Assembly: GCF_900177325.1 (NCBI RefSeq)
Contig: NZ_FXBL01000004.1
Location: forward strand, 1,860,001 to 1,924,000
Source: Mesorhizobium australicum
GTDB taxonomy: Bacteria > Pseudomonadota > Alphaproteobacteria > Rhizobiales > Rhizobiaceae
Direction of reading: 5' to 3'
Length of the DNA stretch: 64,000 nt
Below, piece after piece: positions 11,195 to 26,887 of this stretch (positions are counted from its first letter, which is position 1; every line of letters begins with the position of its first letter). The notes under the pieces are model-generated. The model worked only from the letters and a program-made list of their open reading frames with translations, did no database searches and was not told the DNA's origin. The translations under genes were made by a program, and so were the position numbers.

Positions 11195-11818
11195 TCAGGG
11201 CGAGGCCGCAGCGTCGGACAGGATCGGTCCGTGGATGTCGTAGGCGCGGCGTGTACTTGCGATCGCTTCCGGCGTGACGTCGATCAACAGTGCGACGATG
11301 TCTCCATCCTCGTGCTGCAGGACATCGCCCAGTTCGGCGACGCTCCATCCAAGGGCGCGCAGGCGCTTCGGCCAGAACGCTTCACATACGACGCTGATCT
11401 GCCGAATCCCGAGTCTGAGCGCAACCTCCAGCAAGCCGCACAATACGACGCCCGCGACGGGAGACGGTCCGCCGCGACCGCGCAGGGCGGGACTGATGAA
11501 AAAGCGCGTCCATTCAAAGATGTCCGGCGCCCGCGGTGGCCCGTCGGACGCGAGCCCCGGAAACACGTCGCCGAGCAGATGTGGCTGTAGCGTCGGAACC
11601 AGGCGCGACCCGCCAACGATCTTGCCGAGGCTATCGAGCGCCAGCAGGTAGATGGCATGCTCGGTGTCGAACGCATCCATTTCGATATTGATGGGTCGTG
11701 CCACCGCGCGCCATTGCCGCCGTTTCACGTAGATGTCGTAGCGAATCCGAAAATAGCGCTCCAGCACAACCCTGTACTGTTTTCTGTTGGCCCAAGTGAC
11801 AACCGCAATTCGAACCAT
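11195..11818 (-). CDS. LuxI-type acyl-homoserine-lactone synthase
   Basis: 207 residues. It makes an N-acyl-homoserine-lactone signal from S-adenosylmethionine and acyl-ACP. The invariant residues of the family can be followed: R and W in RYFRIRYDIYVKRRQW, acidic residues in MDAFDTEHAIYLLAL, R in GGSRLVPT and E/R in IFEWTRFFI. The ATG at 11818 is preceded by GGAGG. It lies 66 bases downstream of luxR in the same orientation, with a lux-box-like dyad between the genes. The acyl specificity cannot be read from sequence. Confidence 0.93.
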   Translation of the reverse strand: MVRIAVVTWANRKQYRVVLERYFRIRYDIYVKRRQWRAVARPINIEMDAFDTEHAIYLLALDSLGKIVGGSRLVPTLQPHLLGDVFPGLASDGPPRAPDIFEWTRFFISPALRGRGGPSPVAGVVLCGLLEVALRLGIRQISVVCEAFWPKRLRALGWSVAELGDVLQHEDGDIVALLIDVTPEAIASTRRAYDIHGPILSDAAASP

Positions 11819-11864
11819 GACGCCTCCAGGCGTCGGGAGTAGGTCACCGTCCCCTGGATTCCTT

Positions 11865-11882
11865 ATGCCGGAATTCCGGTAT
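11865..11882. promoter_or_regulatory. lux-box-like dyad upstream of luxI
   Basis: The 18-base element ATGCCGGAATTCCGGTAT pairs 16 of 18 positions as an inverted repeat (perfect core CCGGAATTCCGG at 11868-11879). It sits 47-64 bases upstream of the luxI start codon and just beyond the luxR stop, the position expected for a LuxR-family activator site. Its minus-strand reading contains ATTCCGGCATA, which also occurs in the dyad before the fseA-like gene at 20368-20378. Confidence 0.55.
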
Positions 11883-11884
11883 TG

Positions 11885-12613
11885 CTAAATCTGAATTTCG
11901 TGCCTGCGCAATGCCTTCACGATGGCATGGGCGACGTTGATGGCATCGAGCTTGTCGCGAATGTTGCGATGGTGGCTCTCCACCGTGTTTGTCGTCACCC
12001 CGAGGATGCAGGAAATGTCCTCAGTCGATTTGCCTTGGGCGCTCCATTGCAGAAGTTCGCGCTCCCGCGGCGTCAACGGCGCTGTACCCTCCTCGCCGCG
12101 TTTTGTCTCCAGGCCGCTCAGCTTGCGAAACGTGTGGACGCAGAGCGCCTCGATCAGAGGCATGGCTTCCGGCGGGACCTCGAGGCGATCGCTTGCCGCC
12201 GTCACCACGGCTGGGCCGGCAAGCGGGACATGGATGGGAACGCAGAGCCCGTCCTTCATGCCGAATTCGGCCGCTTCGTTCATGACAAGGCGCCCGCGGG
12301 CCTTTAGGCTGTCCGGTTGCAATTGATGCCAAAGGAAGGGCTCCGCAGTGAGGCGGCTGCGCGCTGCGCACGGATCGTTGAGGAAGTGACTTTCGGATTC
12401 GTAGCGCAGGAACCATTCGCGTGGCCATCCGTCACATAGGATCGCGCGATGCCATTCGCTGTCGTGCGGAACTGGCAGTCCTGTTATGAGAAAGCTGTTC
12501 AGGCCGTAGGTTTCGAGAACAACGCGGAATACCTGGAGAACCCTGTCAGACGAGCGCGCGGAATCGATGTCCGAAATCGTCGCGAGAAGCTCCAAGACGG
12601 CCGCGTTGTTCAT
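11885..12613 (-). CDS. LuxR-type quorum-sensing transcriptional regulator
   Basis: 242 residues. The N-terminal autoinducer-binding domain keeps the expected aromatic/acidic signature (WPREWFLRYESESHFLNDP and EPFLWHQL). The C-terminal GerE/LuxR helix-turn-helix reads LTPRERELLQWSAQGKSTEDIS, then GVTTNTVESHHRNIRDKLDAINVAHAIVKAL. It should bind the lactone made by the adjacent LuxI product and regulate the operon from the dyad at 11865-11882. Targets beyond luxI may include the element's excision genes. The ATG at 12613 gives normal family length. Confidence 0.92.
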   Translation of the reverse strand: MNNAAVLELLATISDIDSARSSDRVLQVFRVVLETYGLNSFLITGLPVPHDSEWHRAILCDGWPREWFLRYESESHFLNDPCAARSRLTAEPFLWHQLQPDSLKARGRLVMNEAAEFGMKDGLCVPIHVPLAGPAVVTAASDRLEVPPEAMPLIEALCVHTFRKLSGLETKRGEEGTAPLTPRERELLQWSAQGKSTEDISCILGVTTNTVESHHRNIRDKLDAINVAHAIVKALRRHEIQI

Positions 12614-20361: not shown

Positions 20362-20383
20362 CGCGGTATTCCGGCATACCGCG
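20362..20383. promoter_or_regulatory. Dyad upstream of fseA-like gene, possible LuxR-family site
   Basis: CGCGGTAT (20362-20369) and ATACCGCG (20376-20383) are perfect 8-base inverted arms around TCCGGC. The element ends 34 bases before ATG 20418 and 49 before ATG 20433. The centre contains ATTCCGGCATA, identical to 11 bases within the dyad upstream of luxI (minus strand of 11864-11874). The centres of symmetry differ between the two sites. Confidence 0.5.
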
Positions 20384-20417: not shown

Positions 20418-20636
20418 ATGGGATCGGAAGCGATGAAGCCGGATACGTCGAAATGGGACAACCCGTCGGCCTACGACTTCATCAAGGATTCTGCTGCCGA
20501 CAGCATCGCCTGGGAGTTTCTTCGGCGTAACAAGCGATATCAGAAGGATTACCGGGACATGCAGATGGCCGCCGCGAAGGATATGCCGTCAAATGCCCTG
20601 GATCGCTGGGGCCTCAGCTTTCGCGGCAAGACCTGA
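20418..20636 (+). CDS. DUF6499-type protein, 5' half of FseA-like activator
   Basis: 72 residues from ATG 20418 (or 67 from ATG 20433, MKPDTSKWDNPSAYDFIKD, the usual family N-terminus). It contains SAADSIAWEFLRRNKRYQKDYRDM, the DUF6499 domain, and terminates at TGA 20634-20636. In ICEMlSymR7A the homologous gene msi172 is joined to the overlapping DUF2285 gene msi171 by programmed +1 frameshifting to give FseA. Here TTT C at 20619-20622 (codons AGC TTT CGC) lies just before this stop, and slipping +1 leads straight into the DUF2285 frame. Confidence 0.8.
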   Translation: MGSEAMKPDTSKWDNPSAYDFIKDSAADSIAWEFLRRNKRYQKDYRDMQMAAAKDMPSNALDRWGLSFRGKT

Positions 20637-21192
20637 TCAAGCCGCCAGCCAACAGCCGATCTTCTGGACGCCTGAGACGGATCCCGGCGTCATTAACCTC
20701 GTGCAAACCCCTAAACCGCTGACCGCTGCTGCGGCGAGTGGCATCGACGTCCCTTTCGTAGCGCTACGACGAAATGGGATGGGCTTGCATACGCGCGTTC
20801 CGTTGCCGGGCGGCAGCCAGCTGATGCTTGTCCACGGCACCCACCCTGATCGCCCGCTGGCCGTCATTATCCCGCTCGACAGCGCGGCGCGTGATCGGCT
20901 CTCCGCCGTCGAGCGCTTCGTCCGGTCACAAAGCGGCCACAGCGTCCGGGACACGCGGCTCACCGCCGCGCAGCGCCGCCGCCTCGCGCAGATGCTGCGC
21001 GCGCTGGACGGGCGCAGGGAAGGGGCCTCCTACCTGCAACTGGCCATCGCGCTTTTCGGCCGGCGGCTCATCGACCCGGCCAATTGGCAGGAATCGTCAT
21101 TCCGTTACACGACGCTGCGCCTCGTCCGTGACGGTCTGATGATGGTCGACGGCGGCTATCGACAGCTGCTCCGGGCGCGTCGCTCCACTTGA
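20593..21192 (+). CDS. DUF2285 protein, 3' half of FseA-like activator
   Basis: The conserved part begins at about 20623 (AARPDQAASQQPIFW) and includes ETDPGVINL, FVALRRNGMGLHTRVPL, the LQLAIALFG and FRYTTLRLVRDGLMMVDGGYRQLLR helices of DUF2285. The first ten codons before 20623 lie antisense to no family and are probably not translated alone. In most alphaproteobacterial elements DUF6499 and DUF2285 are one protein; here they overlap by 44 bases in the +1 frame. Fusion at TTT-C gives about 252 residues from ATG 20433. Expected role: activator of the downstream RdfS-like excisionase gene. Confidence 0.8.
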   Translation: MPWIAGASAFAARPDQAASQQPIFWTPETDPGVINLVQTPKPLTAAAASGIDVPFVALRRNGMGLHTRVPLPGGSQLMLVHGTHPDRPLAVIIPLDSAARDRLSAVERFVRSQSGHSVRDTRLTAAQRRRLAQMLRALDGRREGASYLQLAIALFGRRLIDPANWQESSFRYTTLRLVRDGLMMVDGGYRQLLRARRST

Positions 21193-21196
21193 CCCG

Positions 21197-21237
21197 GATC
21201 AGGTGCAAAATCACCGGTCGCGATTTCGCACCTGATC
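21197..21237. promoter_or_regulatory. Large dyad between fseA-like and rdfS-like genes
   Basis: GATCAGGTGCAAAATC (21197-21212) and GATTTCGCACCTGATC (21222-21237) pair at 15 of 16 positions, separated by 9 bases. It starts 4 bases after the DUF2285 stop and ends 69 bases before the rdfS-like ATG. It could be a terminator for the upstream gene, an operator of the excisionase promoter, or both. There is no T-run, which favours a protein-binding role. Confidence 0.6.
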
Positions 21238-21306: not shown

Positions 21307-21588
21307 ATGAAACCCGACGACGCCGTCCTGCCACCACGCTATCTGCGCACCCCCGAGGCGGCCCGTTTCCTTGGCCTGTCCGCTCGCACCCTGGAGAAGC
21401 ACCGAAGTTACGGAACCGGTCCCGCCTACCGCAAACTCGGCGGACGCGTCGTCTACGCGCTGGAGGATATCCAGGCGTGGGCGGCGCGGGGCACCAAGAC
21501 CTCGACCTCCGATCCGAACGGATCGGTCCTGCCGGCCAAACGCCATCCCCCCCGGCTCATCCCCTATGCCGGCCACGAAAAGCGCTGA
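21307..21588 (+). CDS. AlpA/HTH_17 family excisionase, RdfS-like
   Basis: 93 residues. The winged helix-turn-helix of the MerR/AlpA (HTH_17) type is clear: PPRYLRTPEAARFLGLSARTLEKHRSYGTGPAYRKLGGRVVYALEDIQAWAA. The C-terminal tail is basic and proline-rich. Recombination directionality factors of Mesorhizobium symbiosis ICEs (RdfS) are of this class and sit at the head of a transfer operon, as here: RepA, DUF2840, TraF, relaxase follow. Binding would convert the integrase reaction from integration to excision. ATG 21307 is the first codon matching family N-termini. Confidence 0.85.
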   Translation: MKPDDAVLPPRYLRTPEAARFLGLSARTLEKHRSYGTGPAYRKLGGRVVYALEDIQAWAARGTKTSTSDPNGSVLPAKRHPPRLIPYAGHEKR

Positions 21589-21591
21589 TAG

Positions 21592-22665
21592 GTGGCAGCG
21601 ATGCAACACGATCCCTTGTCCGAGCGTGTGCAGCTCGAGCCCTTTCAAGCGCTTCCCGGCGGTTTCGTGCCGCGCGATGCGCAGGACCTGATGGCCTATC
21701 CATTTTTCTCACTGTCGAAATCACACCGTACGTCGCCGATCGACTTCTCCGCCGGCACCATCTCGATCCGTGTCGAAGCCGTTCCCGATCATGGCATGGC
21801 GACGATCTGGGACGCCGACATCCTGATCTGGGCCGCCAGCCAGATCGTAGAGGCGCGCGACCAGGGCCTGCGCACCTCGCGCCTGATGGCAGCAACACCC
21901 TACGAGATCCTCACCTTCATCGGCCGCGGCACGTCGCTTCGCGACTATCTTCGCCTCAAGGCGGCTCTTGACCGATTACAGTCGACGACTGTCGCGACGA
22001 CGATCCGCCAGCCGGAAGGACGCCGCCATCGCTTCTCCTGGATCAACGAGTGGCAGGAGCGAACAGACCGGCTCAACAAGCCGGCGGGCATAGAACTGAT
22101 CCTGCCGGACTGGTTCTACCGCGCCGTCATGGACGACGCGCTCGTACTGACCATCGATCGAGCCTATTTCGGCCTGACCGGCGGCATCGACCGATGGCTC
22201 TACCGTCTGGTCCGCAAGCATGGCGGACGCCAGCGTGCCGGCTGGCGCTTCGACTTCCGCCATCTCCATCTCAAGTCCGGCAGTCTGTCGCCGTTCAGAC
22301 GCTTCGCGTTTGAGCTTCGGGACATCATCTGCCGCCAGCCGCTCCCCGGCTACACGCTGTTCACTGAAGTTGAAATCAGCGGCCGCGTTCTGCTCGCCTT
22401 CGAGCCAGTTGCACGGCCTGTGGACCGGCTCGTGCCATCGGGAACCCGCCCCATCGTGCCATCGGGAACGGCGGCCTCGTGCTATCGGGAACAGGCCAAG
22501 CCGCTAAGCCGTCGCGATCACACGAGAATCTCCGCGCCTAACTTGGAATCTAACACCGAGTCTAACCTCTTTTCGCGCGCTGGCGTCGGGCACAAGCAAA
22601 GCCAGTTCGATGTCCGCTTGCCTGCCTCGCCGAGGCAAGGACCGCGCAAGGCGGACCAGTCATGA
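21592..22665 (+). CDS. RepA-like replication initiator (RPA family)
   Basis: 357 residues from GTG 21592 or 354 from ATG 21601. The replication-initiator-A family is recognised from LMAYPFFSLSKSHRTSPIDF, ISIRVEAVPDHGMATIWDADILIWAASQIVEA, TPYEILTFIGRGTSLRDYLRLKAALDRLQSTTV and LTGGIDRWLYRLVRKHGG. Such proteins drive theta replication of plasmids and assist some ICEs after excision. The C-terminal 100 residues are low-complexity (VPSGTRPIVPSGT repeats) and variable. It follows the rdfS-like gene with no gap and overlaps the next gene by 4 bases. No obvious iteron array is seen nearby. Confidence 0.87.
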   Translation: MAAMQHDPLSERVQLEPFQALPGGFVPRDAQDLMAYPFFSLSKSHRTSPIDFSAGTISIRVEAVPDHGMATIWDADILIWAASQIVEARDQGLRTSRLMAATPYEILTFIGRGTSLRDYLRLKAALDRLQSTTVATTIRQPEGRRHRFSWINEWQERTDRLNKPAGIELILPDWFYRAVMDDALVLTIDRAYFGLTGGIDRWLYRLVRKHGGRQRAGWRFDFRHLHLKSGSLSPFRRFAFELRDIICRQPLPGYTLFTEVEISGRVLLAFEPVARPVDRLVPSGTRPIVPSGTAASCYREQAKPLSRRDHTRISAPNLESNTESNLFSRAGVGHKQSQFDVRLPASPRQGPRKADQS

Positions 22666-23162
22666 GGGTTTTCGGTAAGGCAACAGGCCGGGTCGCCGAT
22701 GGCGACCTCACCACCGTTGAGCTGACCTGGGTGGAGAAGCGGGTCGAACATCGCATCCGCTTCGGTCGACCTTTGCGCATCCACACCATCGACCGGCGAC
22801 GGCGTGTCGTCAGCTTCGCGCCGGATCGCGTCTTTGCCTTTGTCCGCTGGTCAGCGAACGACTTCGGAACGATCGTCTCTCGTATCGACATCGTGCGAAC
22901 TGTCACCGTTGGCGAAGCCTATCAGACGCTGCCCTTCGTGCGGCCGGGCGGCGAGGTTCTGCTCAAGGTCCATGGTTGGCCGAAGGTCGAGCGTGTTCTC
23001 CAGCTCATCGACGCCATCGAACGTATCGGCATCGATCCGGAAGCGGTGTCGCCCGATCACTGGCATCACGTCCACAACCGATTGACCGCCGGACAGGAAC
23101 CGCGCGGCTACACGCTCGATCATCACCGCGCCTTCCTCGCGCGCCGGAGGGCCGAACCATGA
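22662..23162 (+). CDS. DUF2840 domain protein
   Basis: 166 residues: LTTVELTWVEKRVEHRIRFG, FVRWSANDFGTIVSRIDIVR, YQTLPFVRPGGEVLLKVHGWPKVERVL and DPEAVSPDHWHHVHNRLTAG. This is DUF2840, found almost only between repA and traF in alphaproteobacterial mobile elements. Function unknown. ATGA overlaps couple it to RepA upstream and TraF downstream. Confidence 0.85.
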   Translation: MRVFGKATGRVADGDLTTVELTWVEKRVEHRIRFGRPLRIHTIDRRRRVVSFAPDRVFAFVRWSANDFGTIVSRIDIVRTVTVGEAYQTLPFVRPGGEVLLKVHGWPKVERVLQLIDAIERIGIDPEAVSPDHWHHVHNRLTAGQEPRGYTLDHHRAFLARRRAEP

Positions 23163-23704
23163 GCCGCGCCAAACTGTTCCTCGCGACAGCACTCGCGGCT
23201 CTAGGCGTCGGCGTTCCAGGCCTCAGGCCAATGCCGACCAAGTGGATCTGGAATGCGTCGGCAAGCGCGCCGGTCGGCCTCTACACGATCGATCTCGACG
23301 GACCGTTCGAAATCACCGATCTTGTCGCCATCAACCCTTCCGAACCGCTTGCGAGCCTCTTCGCCGAGCGTGGCTATCTGCCGAGGGGCACGCTGCTGAT
23401 AAAGCGCATCCTAGCCGTTTCAGGCCAGATCGTCTGCCGCGCGAACCTCACCATCACGGTGGATGGCATCGAGGTTGGTGCTGCGCTCGAACGCGACCGG
23501 GCCGGCCGCGATCTTCCCGCCTGGCAGGGCTGCCGCCGCGTCCAACGCGGGGAAGTCTTCGTCATGAACTGGCAGGTCCCAGACAGCCTCGACGGCCGCT
23601 ACTTCGGCTTGACTTTGACCGACCAGATCATCGGCCGCGCCCTTCCGCTGTGGACCGACGAGGACGCAACCGGCCGCTTCCGATGGTGGGCGCCAACACG
23701 CTGA
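23159..23704 (+). CDS. TraF-like conjugal-transfer signal peptidase (S26)
   Basis: 181 residues with an N-terminal membrane anchor (LFLATALAALGVGVPGL). The S26C catalytic serine is S36 in SASAPVGLY, and the general-base lysine is K82 in GTLLIKRILAVSGQ. TraF peptidases process and cyclise the conjugative pilin. In Mesorhizobium ICEs traF lies in the rdfS-led operon, as here. No pilin or type IV secretion genes are in the window, so they would have to be elsewhere. Confidence 0.9.
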   Translation: MSRAKLFLATALAALGVGVPGLRPMPTKWIWNASASAPVGLYTIDLDGPFEITDLVAINPSEPLASLFAERGYLPRGTLLIKRILAVSGQIVCRANLTITVDGIEVGAALERDRAGRDLPAWQGCRRVQRGEVFVMNWQVPDSLDGRYFGLTLTDQIIGRALPLWTDEDATGRFRWWAPTR

Positions 23705-23729
23705 CCGCTCTCCCGTCGGCGGGAGCGGT
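23704..23729. terminator. Hairpin between traF-like and DUF736 genes
   Basis: ACCGC-CT-TCCCG and CGGGA-GCGGT form a GC-rich stem around TCGG, with a two-base bulge, directly after the traF-like stop. It could attenuate transcription or stabilise the upstream mRNA end. Confidence 0.45.
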
Positions 23730-23772
23730 GCCCGTCAACGGTTTTGCCAACATCGCCGCTGAGGAGAAAGTC

Positions 23773-24120
23773 ATGCCGCAGATTGGACAATTCACCCGTG
23801 AACAAACCGGCTTCGTCGGGCGCATCCAAACTCTGACGCTGTTCCGTGCCATCGCGGTCATTCCGGCCGATCCGTCCGAAGCAGAGAATGCGCCGGACTA
23901 TCGTGTTCATGCGCGCGACGACGGCAGCGACGAAATCGGTCCGGCGATCGGCGCGGGTTGGAAACGTACCGGCGAACGCGCCGGGGAATATGTCGCGTTG
24001 CTAGTCGACGATCCGGCTTTATCGCAGCCGATCCGCGCATACCTGTTTCGCGACGACGAGGCCGGCCATGGCTGGTCGTTGCACTGGTCTCGCCCCCGCG
24101 ATCGCGCCGAGAAGGATTGA
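23773..24120 (+). CDS. DUF736 family protein, second copy
   Basis: 115 residues: MPQIGQFTREQTGFVGRIQTL, NAPDYRVHARDDGSDEIGPAIGAGWKR, YVALLVDDPALSQPIRAYLF and WSLHWSRPRDR. It belongs to the same family as 18930-19253 but is clearly divergent from it. GAGGAG just upstream supports ATG 23773. It sits inside the transfer operon, with only 3 bases to the next gene. Confidence 0.88.
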   Translation: MPQIGQFTREQTGFVGRIQTLTLFRAIAVIPADPSEAENAPDYRVHARDDGSDEIGPAIGAGWKRTGERAGEYVALLVDDPALSQPIRAYLFRDDEAGHGWSLHWSRPRDRAEKD

Positions 24121-24123
24121 GCG

Positions 24124-24903
24124 ATGAGTGCCGGGCGCCACTCGACGTTCCGTCCGCCTGCGTTCGGGCTGCACAGAACCGTTCGCAGCACGGCTCTCCT
24201 TCTCCTTTCCGGCCTGTCCCTGGCGAGCGTCATGCCGGCGAGCATGATGGCACAGGACGCGCCGTTCGCCCGACCGTCGCAACGCGATCCTTATGCCGGT
24301 CACGTCGCCGAGGCATCGCGGCGCTTCGGCATTCCGATTGCTTGGATCAAGGCGGTAATGCGCGCCGAAAGCGCCGGTGACCGCCGCGCAATATCCTTTG
24401 CCGGGGCGATGGGCCTGATGCAGATCATGCCCGCGACGTGGACCGACCTGCGCACTCGCCATGGCCTCGGCCGTGATCCCTATGACCCGCGCGATAACAT
24501 TCTCGCGGGTACGGCTTATCTGCGCGAGATGCTTGACCGGTACGGAACTGTCGGCGGCATGCTCGCCGCCTACAATGCCGGCCCGGCGCGCTATGACGAA
24601 TACGTCATGACCGGCCGCCCGCTGCCGGCAGAGACGCGCGCCTACGTCGCTTCGTTCGCACCGCGCATCGACGGTTCCGGCGACACGAATTCAGCAGCCA
24701 TGGTCGAGGTCTACCGATCGGACTGGACACGTTCGCCGCTGTTCTTCGCACAGTTCGCGCCCGTCTCCGCAACCGCTTTCGTGTCGGCCGATCGATCGCT
24801 CGATGGCCGCCCGGTTGCGACCACTGTGCGTACTGTCTCCGTGAGCGCGCCGCAACCGAACGGCCTGTTCGTGGCGCGCGCCGCAGCCGGAGAGCCGCGA
24901 TGA
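24124..24903 (+). CDS. VirB1-like lytic transglycosylase
   Basis: 259 residues. A signal peptide (TALLLLSGLSLASVMPASMMAQDA) exports it to the periplasm. The SLT domain spans about residues 60-180: IAWIKAVMRAESAGD with the catalytic glutamate, FAGAMGLMQIMPATWTDL, DPRDNILAGTAYLREMLDRYG and MLAAYNAGPARYDEY. It opens peptidoglycan for assembly of the conjugation apparatus. The following DNA begins with an ATGA overlap (24900), but no convincing gene follows. Confidence 0.92.
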   Translation: MSAGRHSTFRPPAFGLHRTVRSTALLLLSGLSLASVMPASMMAQDAPFARPSQRDPYAGHVAEASRRFGIPIAWIKAVMRAESAGDRRAISFAGAMGLMQIMPATWTDLRTRHGLGRDPYDPRDNILAGTAYLREMLDRYGTVGGMLAAYNAGPARYDEYVMTGRPLPAETRAYVASFAPRIDGSGDTNSAAMVEVYRSDWTRSPLFFAQFAPVSATAFVSADRSLDGRPVATTVRTVSVSAPQPNGLFVARAAAGEPR

Positions 24904-25004
24904 CGGCGCGCAACAGCTTTCGCATCCTGTCGCGCTCCAGCGTATCGGAGAGGGCGAAGAGGCGGGAGACAGGGAACACGACCGGGGGAGGGCAGGATAA
25001 AGGG

Positions 25005-25136
25005 GCGCGATGTGCGCTGCGGTTGGGGGATGGAATTTCAACGACTTGCAGGTCATTTGCGCGATGTGCGCTTGCAGCGCTTACATCGCGCAAGCTGCAC
25101 TTGTGCACTGTTCTCAGCACCTTGGCGCGATGTGCG
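25005..25136. repeat. Three iteron-like direct repeats upstream of relaxase
   Basis: The 12-mer GCGCGATGTGCG occurs exactly at 25005-25016, 25059-25070 and 25125-25136 (spacing 54 and 66 bases), plus an inverted partial copy at 25083-25091. Three exact 12-mers in 132 bases are unlikely by chance even in GC-rich DNA. They immediately precede the relaxase ATG at 25148. Confidence 0.6.
25058..25092. repeat. Strong hairpin upstream of relaxase gene
   Basis: TGCGCGATGT (25058-25067) and ACATCGCGCA (25083-25092) are perfect 10-base inverted arms. The loop contains an inner stem GCGCT-TGC-AGCGC, leaving only a two-base bulge. It lies 56 bases before the relaxase start and overlaps one of three direct GCGCGATGTGCG repeats. 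This is a good candidate for an oriT/relaxase recognition hairpin or an operator. Confidence 0.55.
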
Positions 25137-25147
25137 GGGTCTCGGCT

Positions 25148-26887
25148 ATGAGCGACGAACGCGAGTTCCGCGCCCGCCCTGGCCGCATCCGATCGAGCAA
25201 GGCGCAGCGCGCGCGGCCCTTCATTGCCCAGGCACTCGCCGCCGCGCAGAAGGCCGGCGGCTCGGTGTCCCGTCAGGGCAGGATAGGTCCTGGCAACCGC
25301 TCGCGTTTCGGCCGCGGACAACGGGCTTCCGTTCAGGCCAACCGGCTACTCACGGCGCGCTCGCGCGGTGCGGTGATCAAGGCCCGCGTCGTGCGCATGA
25401 ACCTGCGCGGCGGCAATCTGCCCAACCACCTGTCCTATCTCCGCCGCGAGGGCGTGACCCGGGATGGGGAGAAGGCGAGGCTCTTCGGTCCGGGCGTCGA
25501 GGATGCAGACGCCGAGGATTTCGCCGAGCGCTGCAAGGACGACCGTCATCATTTCCGCTTCATCGTCTCGCCCGACGACGCGCTGGAGATGGCCGACCTC
25601 AAATCCTTCACCCGCGATCTCGTCGGTCAAATGGAGAAGGACCTCGGCACCAGGCTGGACTGGGTTGCGGTCGATCACTGGAACACCGAGCATCCGCATG
25701 TCCACCTGATCGTACGCGGTGTGCGCGACGACGGCCAGAACCTGGTGATTTCGCGCGACTACATCAAGGAGGGTATGCGCGATCGTGCGCGCGACCTCAT
25801 CACCCAGGAGCTCGGCCCGCGCACTGACAAGGACATCCGCCGCGCGCTCGAACGCCAGATCGAGGCCGAACGCTGGACCAGTCTCGACCGGCAGCTCAAA
25901 CGCGACGGCCTGAAAAGCGGCATCATCGATCTTGCCCCCCGCGCCGGCGAACAGCCCGACGACTATCATGCGCTCAAGATCGGGCGGTTGCGCACCCTCG
26001 AGATCTTCGGTGTCGCCCATCAGGTCGGCCACAGCCAATGGTTCCTGTCTGATGATGCGGAAGCCACGATGCGACAGATGGGCGAGCGCGGCGACGTCAT
26101 CAAGCGAATCCACCGTGCGCTCGCCGAGCGCGGCATCGAGCGCGGCGCCGCGAGCTTCGTGCTGGCGGGCGAGCGGATAAACCAGGCCGTCATCGGGCGC
26201 TTGGTCGATCGTGGGCTCGACGACGAGTTGGATGGAACGGCCTATGTGGTGATCGACGGTGTCGACGGCCGCACCCACCACATCAAGCTCCCAGACCTCG
26301 ACGCGGCTGGCGACAGCGCGCCGGGCTCGATCGTCGAGCTGCGGAAGTTCGAAGACACGCAAGGCCGGCAAAGAGTAGCGATCGCCGTGCGCTCGGACCT
26401 ACCGATCGAGAACCAGATCTCGGCAACCGGGGCGACATGGCTCGACCGTCAGGCCGTCTCCCGCGATCCGGCGGCGCTCGGCGAGGGCGGCTTCGGCCGG
26501 GAGGTGCGGGAGGCGCTCGACCGCCGCGCCGAGCATCTGGCCGAGAAAGGCCTCGCCCAGCGCCAGGGCAGCCGGGTCATCTTCGAACAACGGCTTCTCG
26601 ACACGCTGCGCCGCCGTGAGATCGAGGCAGTCGGCGAGAAGCTGGCATCCGAACTCGGCCGGCCCTTCAATAAGGCGGCAACGGGAGACGTCGTTGCCGG
26701 CACATATCGCCAGCGCTTCGCTATGGCGTCGGGTCGCTTCGCCATGATCGACGATGGGCTCGGCTTCCAGCTCGTCCCATGGACGCCTTCGCTCGACAGG
26801 AAACTCGGGCAGCATATCTCGGGCGTCGCCCGCGGCGACACAGGTGTCGATTGGAGCTTCGGCCGGAAGCGAGGTCTCGGACGATAA
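25148..26887 (+). CDS. DUF3363 / VirD2-like relaxase, RlxS-like
   Basis: 579 residues. The relaxase core begins after a basic N-terminus (RIRSSKAQRARPF, RGAVIKARVVRMNLRGGNLPNHLSYLRREGV). It contains HHFRFIVSPDDALEMADL and the metal-binding histidines HPHVH at residues 182-186 (DHWNTEHPHVHLIVRG). DUF3363 follows (LKRDGLKSGIIDLAPR, RLRTLEIFGVAHQVG, GRFAMIDDGLGFQLVPW). It should nick oriT and pilot the strand during conjugation; RlxS of ICEMlSymR7A is of this type. The upstream start at 25010 is rejected because it would read through the hairpin/repeat region; ATG 25148 begins family-like sequence. The gene is intact but no traG coupling gene follows. Confidence 0.92.
   Translation: MSDEREFRARPGRIRSSKAQRARPFIAQALAAAQKAGGSVSRQGRIGPGNRSRFGRGQRASVQANRLLTARSRGAVIKARVVRMNLRGGNLPNHLSYLRREGVTRDGEKARLFGPGVEDADAEDFAERCKDDRHHFRFIVSPDDALEMADLKSFTRDLVGQMEKDLGTRLDWVAVDHWNTEHPHVHLIVRGVRDDGQNLVISRDYIKEGMRDRARDLITQELGPRTDKDIRRALERQIEAERWTSLDRQLKRDGLKSGIIDLAPRAGEQPDDYHALKIGRLRTLEIFGVAHQVGHSQWFLSDDAEATMRQMGERGDVIKRIHRALAERGIERGAASFVLAGERINQAVIGRLVDRGLDDELDGTAYVVIDGVDGRTHHIKLPDLDAAGDSAPGSIVELRKFEDTQGRQRVAIAVRSDLPIENQISATGATWLDRQAVSRDPAALGEGGFGREVREALDRRAEHLAEKGLAQRQGSRVIFEQRLLDTLRRREIEAVGEKLASELGRPFNKAATGDVVAGTYRQRFAMASGRFAMIDDGLGFQLVPWTPSLDRKLGQHISGVARGDTGVDWSFGRKRGLGR

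Follow-up and report, generated by a model that had tools for sequence, protein, structure and literature searches.

In the 64,000-nucleotide stretch of Mesorhizobium australicum DNA that was analysed (the window), a DUF6499 and a DUF2285 domain are encoded in overlapping reading frames that differ by one base. Does this locus make a single protein, joined by ribosomes that slip from one frame to the other, or two? According to the original prediction, the pair is an FseA-like excision activator probably produced by programmed +1 frameshifting. The literature already describes FseA, including its +1 frameshift and its distribution (4,709 homologues, approximately 61% of which need the shift; PMC10359603; this paper and the others cited are covered here in partial text), and the gene in the window is a further example of that mechanism, not a new one.

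The split gene and its putative slip site

The overlap of the two frames was predicted to be 44 bases, and the coordinates (20593-20636) together with Pfam matches to PF20109 in the first ORF (68.7 bits) and to PF10074 in the second, +1-frame ORF (97.4 bits) bear this out. Around the site, frame 0 reads GAT CGC TGG GGC CTC AGC TTT CGC GGC AAG ACC TGA, where TTT occupies 20619-20621 and the following C is 20622, as originally read. A computed +1 slip at TTT-C leads into the DUF2285 frame as WGLSF-AARPDQ...QPIFW, which also agrees with the prediction; the fused sequence is WGLSF-AARPDQAASQQPIFW. Only the start of the gene was probably placed too early, by 15 bases. We consider ATG 20433 more likely than the predicted 20418, because MKPDTS is encoded at 20433 also in three related loci (L114, L115 and L116), and the ATG at 20418 is absent from L114. 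The numbering F63/A64 is consistent with the start at 20433.

Table 1. Features of the split gene and its surroundings, in window coordinates
Feature	Position	Strand	Basis
LuxI-type synthase, candidate TraI	11195-11818	-	
LuxR-type regulator, candidate TraR	11885-12613	-	
22-bp near-perfect palindrome CGCGGTATTCCGGCATACCGCG upstream of fseA, candidate LuxR/TraR-type operator	20362-20383	+	sequence only
fseA part 1 (msi172-like), DUF6499/PF20109, frame 0, ends at TGA	20433-20636	+	Pfam, IAWEFLRRN motif, start alignment
fseA part 2 (msi171-like), DUF2285/PF10074, +1 frame, own ATG 20593	20593-21192	+	Pfam
5' context TGG GGC CTC AGC (family consensus TGG GGG TTG CGA)	20607-20618	+	
Putative slip site TTT-C (tRNA-Phe from UUU to UUC), predicted fused-protein junction F63/A64	20619-20622	+	
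Frame-0 TGA stop, a codon shared with L114, L115, pMLb and pML2037 but not with L116	20634-20636	+	
Candidate FseA box GGTGCAA-N17-TCGCACC, inside a 41-bp imperfect palindrome (21197-21237)	21202-21232	+	geometry, comparison with other loci
rdfS-like recombination directionality factor (HTH_17)	21307-21588	+	PDB sequence match, Pfam
Transfer block, start to end	21592-26887	+	RPA replication initiator, DUF2840, S26 peptidase, DUF736, SLT transglycosylase, RlxS
TraF-like S26 peptidase	within 22976-23704	+	
RlxS relaxase	25010-26887	+	

FseA is characterized by an N-terminal DUF6499 with an AWEFLRRN-like motif, a C-terminal DUF2285, a conserved +1 frameshift site and inverted hexamers upstream of rdfS. 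In the window, the motif is IAWEFLRRN, the DUF2285 domain lies in the +1 frame of what is predicted to be a single chain, and the frameshift site is represented by TTT-C without its usual 5' context. The hexamers are represented by a candidate box, recognized by geometry and by comparison with other loci. With the family, the +1 offset, TTT-C, an RdfS-like gene and an FseA-box-like repeat all present, the predicted FseA-like identity stands.

Taken as a whole, it is highly probable that the gene is an ICEMlSym-type fseA with a +1 slip, which activates rdfS and thereby excision of an integrative and conjugative element (ICE). We infer the following course of events. Ribosomes would read the DUF6499 frame until, at UUU-C, the P-site tRNA-Phe shifts its pairing from UUU to UUC, one base further on. 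A fraction of them would thereby enter the DUF2285 frame and complete an activator of approximately 252 residues, FseA, while the remaining ribosomes would terminate at the UGA after WGLSFRGKT. FseA would bind the inverted repeat downstream of its gene and activate rdfS together with the transfer operon that follows, RdfS would let the integrase excise the probable ICE of approximately 115 kb from guaA, and LuxR with the LuxI signal would probably switch fseA on. Because the gene is split over two frames, annotation would list it as a pair of small, unrelated proteins.

Conservation of the junction

The closest comparison is provided by a locus of a Rhizobiaceae bacterium (L114; CAJPFN010000083.1), the best segment of which is 88% identical to the window and in which the frames, TTT-C and TGA are all as in the window. 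TTT-C was found at the junction in five of five relatives (L114, L115 from Mesorhizobium sp. M2E, L116 from M. loti LU, pMLb and pML2037) by a script that required TTT and left the following base free, and TGA occupies the position of the window's stop codon in four of them. The pair of pMLb (M. japonicum, NC_002682.1) is 57% identical to that of the window and shares with it TTT-CGC, the TGA at the same codon and a FAARPDQ junction; unlike the window, it has GGT TTG CAG as 5' context, and no rdfS is listed directly behind it in a gene table that is itself incomplete. When the window is aligned with L114, 6/5/15 substitutions fall at codon positions 1/2/3 in the 63 frame-0 codons before the site, and 10/13/46 in the 189 +1-frame codons after it. 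One Ala codon just before the site is GCC/GCT in the two loci, a difference that is synonymous in frame 0 and would change a residue in the +1 frame; upstream of the junction, frame 0 looks like the frame under selection.

These comparisons bear on another reading, in which the locus produces no FseA and the frame difference stems from an assembly error or from a recent indel in a pseudogene under decay. The absence of the family 5' context from the window site and the presence of transposase genes or pieces further downstream would fit such decay. It is nevertheless very improbable, given that a separate assembly (L114, 88% identical) and two named Mesorhizobium plasmids show the same frames, TTT-C and TGA, that third positions carry most of the substitutions relative to L114 in both frames, and that the integrase, relaxase and Trb-like genes are open. 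The L114 and plasmid comparisons already largely refute this reading, and the sequencing error that was named as a possible refutation of the original prediction is made very unlikely as the source of the frame difference by L114, pMLb and pML2037.

The junction was then compared across the family. In three overlapping genome samples, PF20109 was detected in 61 of 297 genomes at order level, 17 of 289 at class level and 43 of 398 at phylum level. A first survey of loci from the genome itself and from the order and class samples yielded 86 distinct pairs, 83 of them with a +1 offset, three in frame and none offset by two, and four DUF6499 matches without a DUF2285 partner. Phe stood at the scored position in 75 of the 83 +1 rows and was encoded by TTT in all 75, whereas TTT makes up 25.1% of the 578 Phe codons at other positions of these genes; C followed TTT in 73 of the 75. 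Eight rows lacked TTT at the assumed position, six of which had been anchored at a wrong Trp or had a different spacing and showed TTT-C after re-anchoring, leaving L002 and L080 as real exceptions. Clustering of the DUF2285 sequences at 55% identity gave 38 clusters, and TTT was found in 34 of the 34 with Phe at the scored position.

With the phylum sample and other loci added, the set comprised 127 distinct pairs (97 with a +1 offset, 29 in frame and one offset by two), and ten DUF6499 matches had no DUF2285 partner. TTT-C was present in 91 of the 96 anchored +1 pairs, including that of the window, versus four of the 27 anchored in-frame homologues, a contrast to which codon bias may add, the in-frame homologues being mostly from other families or classes and the loci being mostly the best-scoring matches of each search plus chosen extra places, not a random sample. 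The five +1 pairs without TTT-C comprised four with TTT-T and L002 with TTT TAT CCC CGT. Not anchored were the +1 pair L080, the junction of which is TGT-C, and the in-frame pairs L100 and L134; L118, the pair offset by two, has an additional frame break downstream and was omitted. Among the four in-frame genes that have TTT-C, two (L180 and L181) are identical at the site. It had been proposed to check the pairs for conservation of TTT-C and to regard random breakpoints as a refutation; the breakpoints are not random, and TTT-C at the junction is, judged from these sequences, more than a matter of chance.

The same survey speaks to the alternative of two separate proteins, in which translation of DUF2285 would begin at ATG 20593 or further downstream, and no frameshifting would be needed for the halves to act. 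The ATG at 20593 is preceded by an SD-like 4-mer, as is some start in seven of the 79 +1 loci with TTT-C, and this arrangement has been proposed for rihF1a/rihF1b of Azorhizobium, the halves of which are said to have their own starts and stops, with frameshifting absent (PMC9601964, partial text). However, separate initiation does not explain why TTT-C is kept in nearly all anchored +1 pairs, 31 of the 79 loci have no +1-frame start codon between the last stop and the junction, and the substitutions before the junction fall mainly at frame-0 third positions when the window is compared with L114. We regard two separate proteins as unlikely; ribosomes very probably join the two frames by a one-base slip. 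Given the widespread TTT-C in the surveyed pairs, the rihF1a/rihF1b junction deserves inspection.

The predicted junction was also said to match naturally fused proteins, and this held in part. Both Pfam domains were present on a single chain in eight of 77 protein matches, and WGL or FGL is joined to the DUF2285 part in seven of these eight, P0075 having no such motif. Phe occupies the slip position in only two, however (P0079, FGLRFPIDPDL, and P0071, WGLQFLADPDL), and the exact string FAARPDQ was found in split relatives (P0005, pMLb and L115). Modelling with AlphaFold2, based on 31 aligned sequences, predicted that the DUF6499-DUF2285 fusion folds well: the best of five models had a pLDDT of 89.0 and a pTM of 0.87, with residues 61-80 at pLDDT 92-94, and two of the five models were lower (pLDDT 75-77). 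The fused protein shows a weak sequence match (E=0.01) to RovC of Yersinia (PDB code: 6xz5), which likewise has a DUF2285-type DNA-binding end and, unlike FseA, regulates a type VI secretion system (PMC10359603).

Sequence upstream of the slip codon

Upstream of the slip codon, the +1-type genes share the consensus TGGGGGTTGCGATTTC at the nucleotide level. Compared with in-frame homologues, the preceding Gly codon is GGG in 70 of 96 versus three of 27 (Fisher p 7e-9), the Leu codon is TTG in 50 of 87 versus eight of 25 (p 0.04), and the Arg codon is CGA in 48 of 59 versus 0 of 10 (p 1e-6). Pairing with the anti-Shine-Dalgarno sequence CACCUCCUU, computed for the 15 bases up to and including the CGA codon, had a predicted median of -9.6 kcal/mol in the 96 +1 pairs and -4.7 kcal/mol in the 27 in-frame pairs. 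The +1-type context thus appears able to pair with the anti-Shine-Dalgarno sequence and is largely missing from the in-frame homologues, a difference to which, here as for the codons, codon bias may add. The published FseA texts contain no description of this context in the parts covered, and a prior report is possible; an exact-string literature search for TTGCGATTTC returned nothing on fseA frameshifting among the matches listed.

The window site, TGGGGCCTCAGCTTTC, lacks the family 5' context, as does L114, and ranks 69th of 75. Its run of G has only four G, and its anti-Shine-Dalgarno energy, -4.7 kcal/mol, equals the median of the in-frame genes, which need no shift. Because the 5' context is absent, shifting in the window gene may be weaker or less frequent, or it may be helped in another way.

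The slip site can be compared with that of prfB, which encodes release factor 2 and in which an AGGGGG lies three bases before CTTT and has been lost from in-frame prfB genes (PMC12421855, partial text). Both genes would slip in the P site at a pyrimidine tetranucleotide, and most +1-type fseA sites resemble prfB in having an SD-like GGGGG upstream that is lost in genes without need of a shift. They differ in the slip sequence (CTTT in prfB, TTT-C in fseA), in the A-site codon (UGA versus a sense codon) and in the spacer (3 nt versus 6 nt). Tentatively, and with more doubt than confidence, we propose that most split fseA genes carry a stimulator, an internal SD-like GGGGG(U) separated from the slip codon by six bases, together with CGA in the E site, that would be analogous to that of prfB, one codon further away and without an A-site stop, that the lineage of the window has shed it, and that ICEs may tune excision in this way. 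If this is true, the excision rate would be tunable by evolution of the 5' stimulator, and the window lineage would rely on a bare TTT-C. The comparison of split with in-frame genes offers a testable upstream signal that may set the shift frequency, with the window copy as a natural variant without it.

The conserved nucleotides could instead form an FseA-binding sequence inside fseA, serving autoregulation and not frameshifting, an idea suggested by the visual resemblance of GGGGGTTGCGATTT to the left half of FseA boxes (GGGGTGCGATTT). However, where the box region contains TGCGA or TCGCA, the slip site has TGCGA in six of 23 loci, compared with 22 of 43 where it contains neither, a difference in the opposite direction (Fisher p=0.068). 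Most in-frame homologues lack the context, as does the window. We rejected an intragenic binding site, an extremely improbable reading, as box type and site type are not positively associated.

The rdfS region and the surrounding element

The candidate FseA box lies between fseA and rdfS, 74 nt before the ATG of the latter. FseA boxes are described as inverted hexamers with spacers of 15 or 16 bp (PMC10359603), and within the candidate the hexamers TGCAAA and TTCGCA stand 15 bp apart. Its left arm is GTGCAA, not GTGCGA; at other loci, comparable repeats (GGTGCGA...TCGCAC and variants) precede rdfS. In an automatic inverted-repeat search, only 33 of 66 loci had their best repeat at 74-93 nt upstream of rdfS, and two of the 33 (L043 and L048) look spurious; boxes were therefore also judged by eye. 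The RdfS-like gene expected downstream of the pair is present: the only PDB sequence match of the HTH_17 protein at E<=1 is RdfS (PDB code: 8dgl; E=2.8e-9), with the Pfam and PDB searches run on 21310-21588, one residue short. The match begins only at chain residue 18 of 8dgl, and the N-terminal helix of the ICESym type is probably absent. The RlxS relaxase of the transfer block is divergent or shortened: it does not reach the length of the NCBIfam model, and its score of 578 bits lies below the cut-off of 850.

An integrase gene (432 aa, with an arm-binding domain) lies directly behind guaA, and the 15 bp ATCGAGTGGGAATGA at the end of guaA recur at C4:1969468. The end-repeat search also gave three chance-looking matches of 14-15 bases, and length alone is no proof of an end; the 15-bp repeat was accepted because it comprises the end of guaA with its stop codon and its second copy lies just beyond the Trb genes. 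At this right end, genes for a coupling protein and TrbB-, E-, L-, F-, G- and I-like proteins are found nearby. The ICE thus probably spans C4:1854799-1969482, approximately 115 kb, with the whole window inside. A tRNA attachment site was set aside, since neither the window nor the stretches on either side of it yielded a tRNA. guaA is listed among the Mesorhizobium ICE sites (PMC8627217, partial text). Outside the symbiosis islands, the locus provides a further ICE in which the switch for excision very probably relies on +1 frameshifting. The stretch 32252-62933 carries polysaccharide and glycosyltransferase cargo (sugar transferase, epimerase, aminotransferase, flippase-like and glycosyltransferase genes).

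The arrangement was compared with ICEMlSymR7A by the published description of the latter, since a scan of genome contigs gave three loci, none of them of R7A. As in the window, FseA of ICEMlSymR7A (msi172-msi171) has DUF6499 followed by DUF2285 in overlapping frames with a +1 shift (PMC10359603, PMC11963761), an inverted repeat lies upstream of rdfS, TraF and RlxS are encoded downstream, and LuxR and LuxI are encoded on the element. Unlike in R7A, rdfS in the window stands directly behind fseA, the element is inserted at guaA and not at tRNA-Phe (PMC8627217), and no QseM-like DUF2285 gene was found in the window's ICE at E<=0.001. The palindrome upstream of fseA is identical in L114 and was not found in L115. 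A second palindrome, on the luxI side (11864-11881), shares ATTCCGGCATA with it in a different register, and both are candidate LuxR-type operators.

The same genome contains two more fseA-rdfS modules, L009 (C4:436 kb) and L010 (C4:164 kb), each beside a lone-DUF2285 (QseM-like) gene. Their candidate FseA boxes, GTGAGGA..TCCTCAT from the automatic search and GGGCGA..TCGCCC by eye, differ from that of the window, and such distinct boxes would let the three switches of one genome stay separate. The junction of the module at C4:164 kb (L002/L010) reads TTT TAT CCC CGT CGA and has no TTT-C, so that a shift there would need CCC-C or TTT-T.
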